From: Sulfurospirillum cavolei
GTDB taxonomy: Bacteria; Campylobacterota; Campylobacteria; Campylobacterales; Sulfurospirillaceae
Direction of reading: 5' to 3'
DNA length: 64,000 nt
Assembly (NCBI RefSeq): GCF_001548055.1
Contig: NZ_AP014724.1
Span: 1,860,001-1,924,000, forward strand
Every line of letters starts with the position of its first letter. Within the stretch, counting starts at the first letter, position 1. Positions 17,725 through 60,364 of this stretch are shown here, piece after piece. The notes under the pieces were generated by a model. The model ran no database searches. It was not told the origin of the DNA and worked only from the letters and a program-made list of their open reading frames with translations. Both the position numbers and the translations under genes were made by a program.

Positions 17725-17871
17725 AAAATAGACTTCTTGTAAAACTTGTTTTGCAAGAAGTAAGAGCACCAAAGGTGCGTGGGCACTCTGCCGAAGAGAA
17801 CCTAGTGTTAACGTAGTCTTTGGAGCTTTGCTTCAAAGACGTGTCAGAAGTTCTTGCTATTTTGCAAGAAC
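17725..17871. repeat. Structured two-copy element, copy 1 (leuA 5' leader region)
   Basis: This stretch of about 147 bases recurs at 41702-41829. On the plus strand it folds as ACTTCTTG/CAAGAAGT; GCACC-AAA-GGTGC; GGCA-CTC-TGCC; an 11-bp stem with a TTT loop (17816-17840); and GTTCTTGC/GCAAGAAC. In the 11-bp stem one pair is G-C here and A-U in copy 2, which is a compensatory change. A neighbouring G-U pair is kept in both copies and would be a mismatch on the other strand, which favours plus-strand RNA. It lies between the leader peptide and leuA, so on the minus strand it is part of the leuA leader transcript. I do not recognise it as a known riboswitch. Confidence 0.7.
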
Positions 17872-17971
17872 GCTAATGATAAAAATTGAGCTGATTAGGT
17901 AGAGGTATCCTCAGGGCTAAAAAGCCAATTTAAAAATCAACAGTGAAAAAAAAGGGGTTAAGAATGAAGGT

Positions 17972-18073
17972 TTAACGGAGCTTCAGGAGGAGGACGACGA
18001 CGAGTGATGCGTTAGAAAATTGCGCAATGCTCTGAGGTTGGGGTATGGTGTGATGGGTGATAAATGTTGCCAT
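17972..18073 (-). CDS. leuA leader peptide (attenuation)
   Basis: This 33-residue ORF starts at an ATG with a strong AAAGGAG 7 bases upstream. It ends in NASLVVVLLLKLR, that is three Val codons (GTC) followed by three Leu codons (CTC, CTC, CTG). A Leu/Val codon run in a short, well-translated ORF ahead of leuA is the hallmark of ribosome-stalling attenuation. The region between it and leuA contains several hairpins. Low charged Leu-tRNA or Val-tRNA would stall the ribosome and change the downstream fold. Regulation is inferred; the peptide and its translation signals are seen directly. Confidence 0.85.
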   Translation of the reverse strand: MATFITHHTIPQPQSIAQFSNASLVVVLLLKLR

Positions 18074-41701: not shown

Positions 41702-41829
41702 AAAATAGACTTTTGCAAAAAGAAAAAGCACCAAAGGTGCGTGGGCTTTCTGCCGAAGAAAACGCAGTGTTAACGTAGTCTTTAGAGCTTTGCTTTAAAG
41801 ACGTGTCAAGAGTTCTGCAAAGAACTCTC
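41702..41829. repeat. Structured two-copy element, copy 2
   Basis: This shorter copy of the 17725-17871 element lacks most of the first hairpin. Conserved are GCACC-AAA-GGTGC, the GTGGGC...CTGCCGAAG segment, AGTGTTAACGTA, and the 11-bp stem with a TTT loop (41778-41802), which carries a compensatory G-C to A-U change. The last hairpin is kept in form but not in sequence (GAGTTCT-GCAA-AGAACTC). It lies between the histidine kinase stop and the cytochrome c gene. On the minus strand GCACC-TTT-GGTGC followed by a T-rich run could end the kinase transcript, so strand is ambiguous here. Confidence 0.7.
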
Positions 41830-41877
41830 ATAAATTAAAGCAAGTTTTTTGTGTCAAAGGCGGCGTCCAAGCTATCG

Positions 41878-59893: not shown

Positions 59894-60337
59894 ATGAAAA
59901 AATACGTTACCGGTTTTTTATTTTCGCAAGATGCGACGCGTGTCGTTTTAATCAAAAAATGCCTTCCTGAATGGCAACAAGGTTTGCTCAACGGCGTCGG
60001 AGGAAAAATCGAAAACAATGAATCATCATGCGATGCTATGGTAAGAGAGTTCCAAGAAGAAACGGGGGTCTTCGTGGCGCACGATCAATGGACGTGTTAT
60101 GCCAAAATTTACCGTCCGAATTATTACGAACTTGATGTTTATTATGCGTATTCCGATCTCGCTTATGAAGCGAAAACCGTTGAGCGTGAAGAAGTTTACC
60201 TCATCAAGCTTCAAGACATACCCGAAAACATCATCCCCAATTTACGGTGGTTGATACCGCTTGCTTTGGACAATCAGGCGGATTTTTCAAAACCCGTCGT
60301 TATTCATGAAGTCTCCGAAGAACGTCTGAAAGCATAA
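59894..60337 (+). CDS. Nudix hydrolase
   Basis: The 147-residue protein has the Nudix box GGKIENNESSCDAMVREFQEETGVF (G-x5-E-x7-R-E-x2-E-E-x-G pattern). It hydrolyses a nucleoside diphosphate-linked compound; possible substrates include oxidised nucleotides, ADP-ribose or NADH. It is divergent from the nap operon. A hairpin terminator shared with the convergent porin follows. Confidence 0.93.
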   Translation: MKKYVTGFLFSQDATRVVLIKKCLPEWQQGLLNGVGGKIENNESSCDAMVREFQEETGVFVAHDQWTCYAKIYRPNYYELDVYYAYSDLAYEAKTVEREEVYLIKLQDIPENIIPNLRWLIPLALDNQADFSKPVVIHEVSEERLKA

Positions 60338-60364
60338 TAGACTTCTTTCATAACCTATGAAAGG

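Follow-up and report, generated by a model that had tools for sequence, protein, structure and literature searches.

Both copies of a structured repeat in the window studied here (the whole stretch of 64,000 nucleotides of Sulfurospirillum cavolei DNA that was analysed) are very probably miniature, non-autonomous transposons (MITEs) of the ISL2-like group of the IS5 family that carry a conserved, pseudoknotted RNA module of 86 nt. They are members of a large, previously uncatalogued Sulfurospirillum family of small mobile DNA elements, and the module is common to several related bacterial families, where its shape has clearly been kept by selection. The first-pass annotation had located both copies correctly, and their exact limits on the plus strand follow from the empty sites of relatives.

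In the full-length (type I) layout, a left inverted repeat that itself forms a hairpin is followed by the 86-nt core and by a right inverted repeat or hairpin, and the terminal inverted repeats of both window copies read AGACTTCTTGCAAAAC. Copy 1 (17730–17874, 145 bp) is full-length: its left repeat AGACTTCTTGTAAAAC (17730–17760) also forms a hairpin with 17747–17760, its core (17764–17849) is defined by a covariance model match, pair counts and mutual information, and its right repeat or hairpin, GTTCTTGC..GCAAGAACGCT, spans 17850–17874, both repeats being delimited by their sequence and by the consensus of 55 copies. Copy 2 (41707–41828, 122 bp), likewise of type I, has a core at 41726–41811 that was placed by the covariance model and by alignment A1 (see below), and a right repeat or hairpin, AGAGTTCTGCAAAGAACTCT, at 41809–41828. 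The earlier view that a series of hairpins is kept in both copies is right in that the structure is real, but the left repeat of copy 2 is shortened and most of the 5' hairpin is gone. No listed open reading frame of at least 80 aa covers either copy.

The element is two-copy inside the window but not genome-wide, as the same 2.70-Mb genome yields 36 matches by BLAST and 47 with the covariance model. Core-only copies, from which the terminal repeats are absent, are frequently arranged in tandem, and some copies in this genome follow one another head to tail, one unit measuring about 92 bp. All 24 Sulfurospirillum genomes searched, including that of the window, contain matches to the element (5–71 per genome), and in a phylum-wide search 73 of 397 genomes were carriers, belonging to 12 of 68 genera; the carrier genera all fall within one order, and one Sulfurovum genome is among the carriers. 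Up to 29 matches per genome were found when 36 distant carriers were searched. With a single genome sampled from each species, close comparisons are few, the paralogous copies are non-independent observations, and the loci used for comparison were the best-scoring matches.

Rfam 15 returned no match to the element at or above the gathering cut-off and noise only at E up to 10, in keeping with the initial impression that it belongs to no recognised riboswitch class, and an Rfam run on the fetched loci returned tRNAs only. Carriage by phages or plasmids was considered and rejected, with 0 exact-pattern matches to the element in IMG/VR and, on the plasmid side, a single 40-bp match in a Sulfurovum mangrovi plasmid. 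No account of such Sulfurospirillum or Arcobacter repeats was found in the literature searched.

Fold and covariation of the 86-nt core

On the plus strand, the inner module forms three stems and two pseudoknots that are chained to each other, a fold strongly supported by covariation, pseudoknots included. In copy 1, the stems pair 17766–17770 with 17774–17778, 17786–17789 with 17795–17798 and 17816–17825 with 17831–17840; the pseudoknots join 17782–17784 to 17790–17792 (GGC/GCC) and 17799–17801 to 17807–17809 (AAC/GTT), and a 2-bp stem joins 17805–17806 to 17811–17812. Alignment A1, made from 36 copies in the window's genome, has 92% of its cells paired in the hairpin fold, with 13 pairs changed on both sides. 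Details first read from the window copies recur in it, namely the replacement of G-C by A-U in the long stem (columns 62/76: AU 23, GC 9, GU 2) and the retained G-U pair (columns 63/75: GU 17, GC 12, AU 4), and the 3' terminal hairpin has indeed changed in sequence while keeping its form.

Alignment A3 comprises 92 matches from other genera, 90 of them distinct, and its mutual information adds pairs beyond those of the model, namely 44-54 (GC 54, AU 33), 61-72 (AU 76, GC 13) and 69-74 (CG 44, UA 37, UG 7, AU 2). These pairs give rise to the two chained pseudoknots, in which GGC pairs with a loop GCC and AAC with a loop GUU. A nested extension of stem 1 (43-65, 44-64) was rejected, being paired in 71–83% and thus worse than the pseudoknot pair 44-54 at 99%. 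The full structure has 97.8% of cells paired in the 90 distant copies, shows double changes in 22 of its 27 pairs, and agrees with A1 to 96.0%. Its covariation score in the distant copies is 0.697, compared with 0.225 after shuffling and at most 0.15 in controls slid by one to three columns. None of 500 shuffles reached the observed score, either in the 36 paralogues or in the 90 distinct distant copies, and a MAFFT alignment that was not fitted to the model returned the same top pairs with z up to 19.5.

The proposal of a structured, covarying element is thereby borne out, and the further homologues with compensatory changes that it called for were found in number within the genome, the genus and the phylum. 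The G-U wobbles place the fold on the plus strand, the orientation that had been favoured on the same grounds. The fold itself is seen in the covariation, and the core is presumed to act as a transcript. Only the core is recognisable in other genera, where the flanking hairpins are unrelated or absent; conservation starts on the left at AAAAGC and fades on the right through an A-rich stretch past CGTATTAAA.

Insertion sites and the candidate mobiliser

At the leuA site, the flanks of copy 1 are contiguous in five congeners (G017, G023, G008, G012 and G009) and overlap by exactly 3 bp, which defines copy 1 as the segment between the AAT duplications at 17727–17729 and 17875–17877; the copy is present in G002, the closest relative by the leuA-locus matches. 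Copy 2 is absent from G002, where the site reads TTTTTAAAATAAATTAAAG, so that this element lies between AAT (41704–41706) and a right duplication that now reads CAT (41829–41831, one change). Among 55 full-length copies the flanking triplets are identical in 29, against 15.6 expected if they were independent; AAT/AAT accounts for 20 and ATT/ATT for 7, whereas AAT-ATT mixtures occur only twice. The target duplication of the element is the 3-bp AWT.

Upstream of leuA, a leader reading frame of 33 aa, MATFITHHTIPQPQSIAQFSNASLVVVLLLKLR, lies on the minus strand at 17972–18073 with the VVVLLL codons expected of a leucine attenuator, and copy 1 sits between this frame and leuA. The leuA leader has seemingly been targeted repeatedly, as other species have core copies at other positions in it (L185, L189, L192, L193) and G010 has two.

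Near the leuA locus of G017 there is a 916-bp insertion sequence (IS) with ends AGACATCTTGCAAAACT and ATT duplications, and the MITE ends, AGACTTCTTGCAAAACT, are nearly identical to these, with one base different. The two overlapping reading frames of the IS score above cut-off against Pfam HTH_Tnp_4 and DDE_Tnp_4 and also match NCBIfam IS5_4, each half falling below the full-length cut-off of the latter. About 21 copies with intact ends were found in five congeners, all but one with matching AAT, ATT, AGT or ACT duplications, and G020 holds a 907-bp relative with AGACTTCTTTCATAAC at its ends. ANT duplications are a mark of the ISL2 group. On its domain layout, its likeness to ISCaa2 and its ANT duplications, the IS can be assigned provisionally to that group. 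ISCaa2, of the IS5 family and ISL2 group, is 916 bp long with two ORFs and a -1 frameshift (PMC3196728), and the IS of G017 matches it in layout and length, with HTH_Tnp_4 and DDE_Tnp_4 domains and ANT duplications. Such an IS would be the partner and not the element itself, which encodes no protein.

Judged from these sequences, the 916-bp IS of the congeners is the likely mobiliser of the MITEs. Its IS5-type transposase would act in trans, binding the terminal inverted repeats and inserting the element at AWT with a 3-bp duplication; the ends, the duplications and the empty sites are observed, and the action of the transposase is presumed. Counting against this assignment, the window's genome gave no DDE_Tnp_4 match and shows no evident full IS with these ends, and the IS ends are one base off those of the MITE. 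The partner is accordingly inferred from congeners, and the copies in the window's genome would have been mobilised earlier, or the enzyme has been lost.

Two further observations concern related transposon ends. A solo end, AATAGACTTCTTTCATAACC, which matches the ends of the 907-bp IS of G020, lies at 60337–60356 directly after a nudix-like gene, with a terminator-like hairpin behind it. Members of a second MITE family, about 166 bp long and bounded by AGACTTCTTTCATAAC (L140 and L141; genome positions 386598–386763 and 840542–840707), have 3-bp flanking duplications, AAG and ATT, and an unrelated interior.

Orientation of the copies and what maintains the fold

Both window copies are antisense to both neighbouring genes. 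Across Sulfurospirillum, with genes taken from a simple ORF caller, 27 of 56 full-length copies have the same sense as the gene downstream and this class thus shows no orientation bias, and core-only copies are sense in 36 of 47 (single copies 22/31, tandem arrays 14/16, p = 0.004 for the arrays), often with a start codon 12–66 nt further on, the arrays mostly at a distance of 15–66 nt. Where adjacent genes run in the same direction in distant genera, the gaps between them contain 31 copies in sense and 28 in antisense orientation, with further copies in 16 convergent and 7 divergent gaps; antisense copies in these genera commonly stop only a few bases from the stop codon of the neighbouring gene. 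The genes adjoining the copies are unrelated to one another. Since the fold in these genera is equally intact in sense (97.4%) and antisense (97.7%) copies, cis-regulation cannot be the general reason for its upkeep. Most likely the fold serves the element itself, and it would be maintained through the element's own spread, probably as RNA with some partner, rather than by regulating neighbouring genes.

In Sulfurospirillum, some copies appear to have lost the transposon ends, amplified in tandem and been kept, reading in the sense direction, a short distance before start codons. This position and orientation suggest a later co-option of some core-only copies as leaders, which would make the retained copies probable 5'-UTR segments. 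In the window's genome, core-only copies lie upstream of tgt, trmA, mnmA and thiL (L028, L021, L031 and L018, respectively), the first three of which, named by eye from sequence, resemble tRNA-modification enzymes.

A DDE transposase needs the ends only, so that it leaves the conservation of the inner fold unexplained, and the IS5 route is not the whole story, because in other genera the core is present, and has been gained or lost, without terminal repeats. In one distant genus a core-only copy of G303 is missing from G216, G320, G374 and G411, which indicates that gain or loss extends to core-only copies; the flanks of this copy would be compatible with an AAT duplication, but the empty sites have diverged. 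It is conceivable, if doubtful, that the 86-nt core is a self-spreading RNA machine across Campylobacterota (either a ribozyme or, like a bacterial SINE, an RNA that takes part in being copied) that the IS5 MITE merely captured in Sulfurospirillum. The hints, none of them decisive, are the core-only copies without terminal repeats in many genera, the A-rich 3' tail, an apparent duplication of about 16 bp and the G303 copy missing from four congeners. The duplication concerns the coaE start of G303 (L301:1538-1610), where the start-codon region is apparently repeated on both sides of an antisense core copy, an insertion that is absent in G216. Elsewhere in G303 (L244:1618-1771), a core copy is adjoined by another kind of dispersed repeat, about 150 bp long, of which the genus has many copies.

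A fold acting at the DNA level, with a transposase, recombinase or replication protein recognising the folded single strand, is rather unlikely. The elements are mobile, their fold is kept independently of gene orientation, and hairpin repeats such as REPs act in this way, but two compact pseudoknots with a GNNA-type loop are typical of RNA. Moreover, IS5 transposition acts on double-stranded ends, and insertion with target duplications is unlike known single-strand transposition.

Dispersed small RNA genes that act in trans and were spread by the transposon would fit a conserved structured RNA in many copies for which orientation to genes is irrelevant. They are nevertheless improbable, as distant copies have no conserved promoter-like sequence upstream, where conservation ends at AAAAGC, and as up to 71 copies per genome would be unusual.

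The first-pass annotation had leaned towards a cis-acting regulatory RNA, such as a riboswitch or part of an attenuator, for the adjoining gene, and it had tied copy 1 to leuA. The elaborate covarying fold, the location of copy 1 within the leuA leader and the mostly sense core-only Sulfurospirillum copies near start codons would agree with such a role. However, copy 1 arrived as a transposon insertion, lies antisense to leuA and is missing from the identical site in several congeners, and full-length copies without orientation bias, together with distant antisense copies that keep the fold, leave a cis-regulatory role for leuA unsupported. With adjoining genes that are unrelated, this reading is disfavoured across the family and very improbable.

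Solo guide-RNA scaffolds of TnpB- or IscB-like nucleases whose protein gene was lost are more improbable still: scaffolds of the RAGATH-18/HEARO type are likewise compact, pseudoknotted and tied to mobile elements (PMC11061315), but a motif scan for TnpB only, covering 342 fetched loci (1.64 Mb), detected no such signature, and both the tandem arrays and the 3-bp target duplications are at odds with such scaffolds. The least likely reading, which was rejected, is an element of the REP/REPIN type that a Y1 (RAYT) transposase would move. In its favour, GTAG is nearly invariant immediately 5' of the long stem, a resemblance to GTAG REPs (PMC3733652), and 23 of 24 Sulfurospirillum genomes have a Y1_Tnp gene, usually syntenic near gyrA. 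This gene, however, has a repeat of its own on either side, AGGGGTCAGGGCTAAACTTTT, which bears no relation to the element. The terminal repeats and 3-bp AWT duplications misfit HUH transposition, the core does not consist of two inverted REPs, and the last G of GTAG takes part in a base pair. Some known RAYT genes likewise have unrelated flanks (PMC3733652). The RAYT-like gene (about 252 aa; L034, L158–L174) is single in most inspected genomes and lies next to gyrA within inverted repeats of AGGGGTCAGGGCTAAACTTTT.

Known repeats and significance of the family

Several described repeats resemble the IS5-family MITEs proposed here. BrickBuilt of Porphyromonas gingivalis has terminal inverted repeats like those of IS5, encodes no transposase, lies dispersed between genes and includes forms with tandem units, but these units are 23-nt minisatellites without homologues elsewhere (PMC4596501), whereas the inner unit of the present element is an 86-nt pseudoknotted RNA module that occurs in at least 12 genera and also outside the MITE. 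ERIC/IRU, NEMIS/Correia and RUP are likewise short, non-autonomous and intergenic, with inverted repeats, target duplications and structured transcripts, and RUP is also linked to a named IS (PMC2229807); they form long simple stem-loops, in contrast to the several short stems, two covarying pseudoknots and tandem core-only arrays found here. The bcr1 repeat of the Bacillus cereus group is a dispersed mobile repeat of about 150 bp with conserved secondary structure, but it is unrelated in sequence and host and, as far as the part of its description consulted goes, differs in its relation to a transposase (PMC2267715). GTAG REPs and REPINs share the GTAG by a hairpin, the intergenic location, the many copies and a Y1 transposase gene in the genome (PMC3733652; PMC3116915), but the element differs in its terminal repeats with target duplication, its larger pseudoknotted core and the lack of a link to the Y1 gene.

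Comparable small bacterial repeats usually carry simple hairpins. The family described here has a doubly pseudoknotted module, covarying in nearly every stem, that is found in at least 12 genera, both inside a transposon and alone in tandem, and that is absent from Rfam. Without annotation of the family, 5–71 copies per genome stay missed in Sulfurospirillum and its relatives. With a covariance model, insertion sites before and after insertion (one of them in the leuA leader) and a candidate transposase in hand, the selfish upkeep of an RNA structure becomes directly testable.
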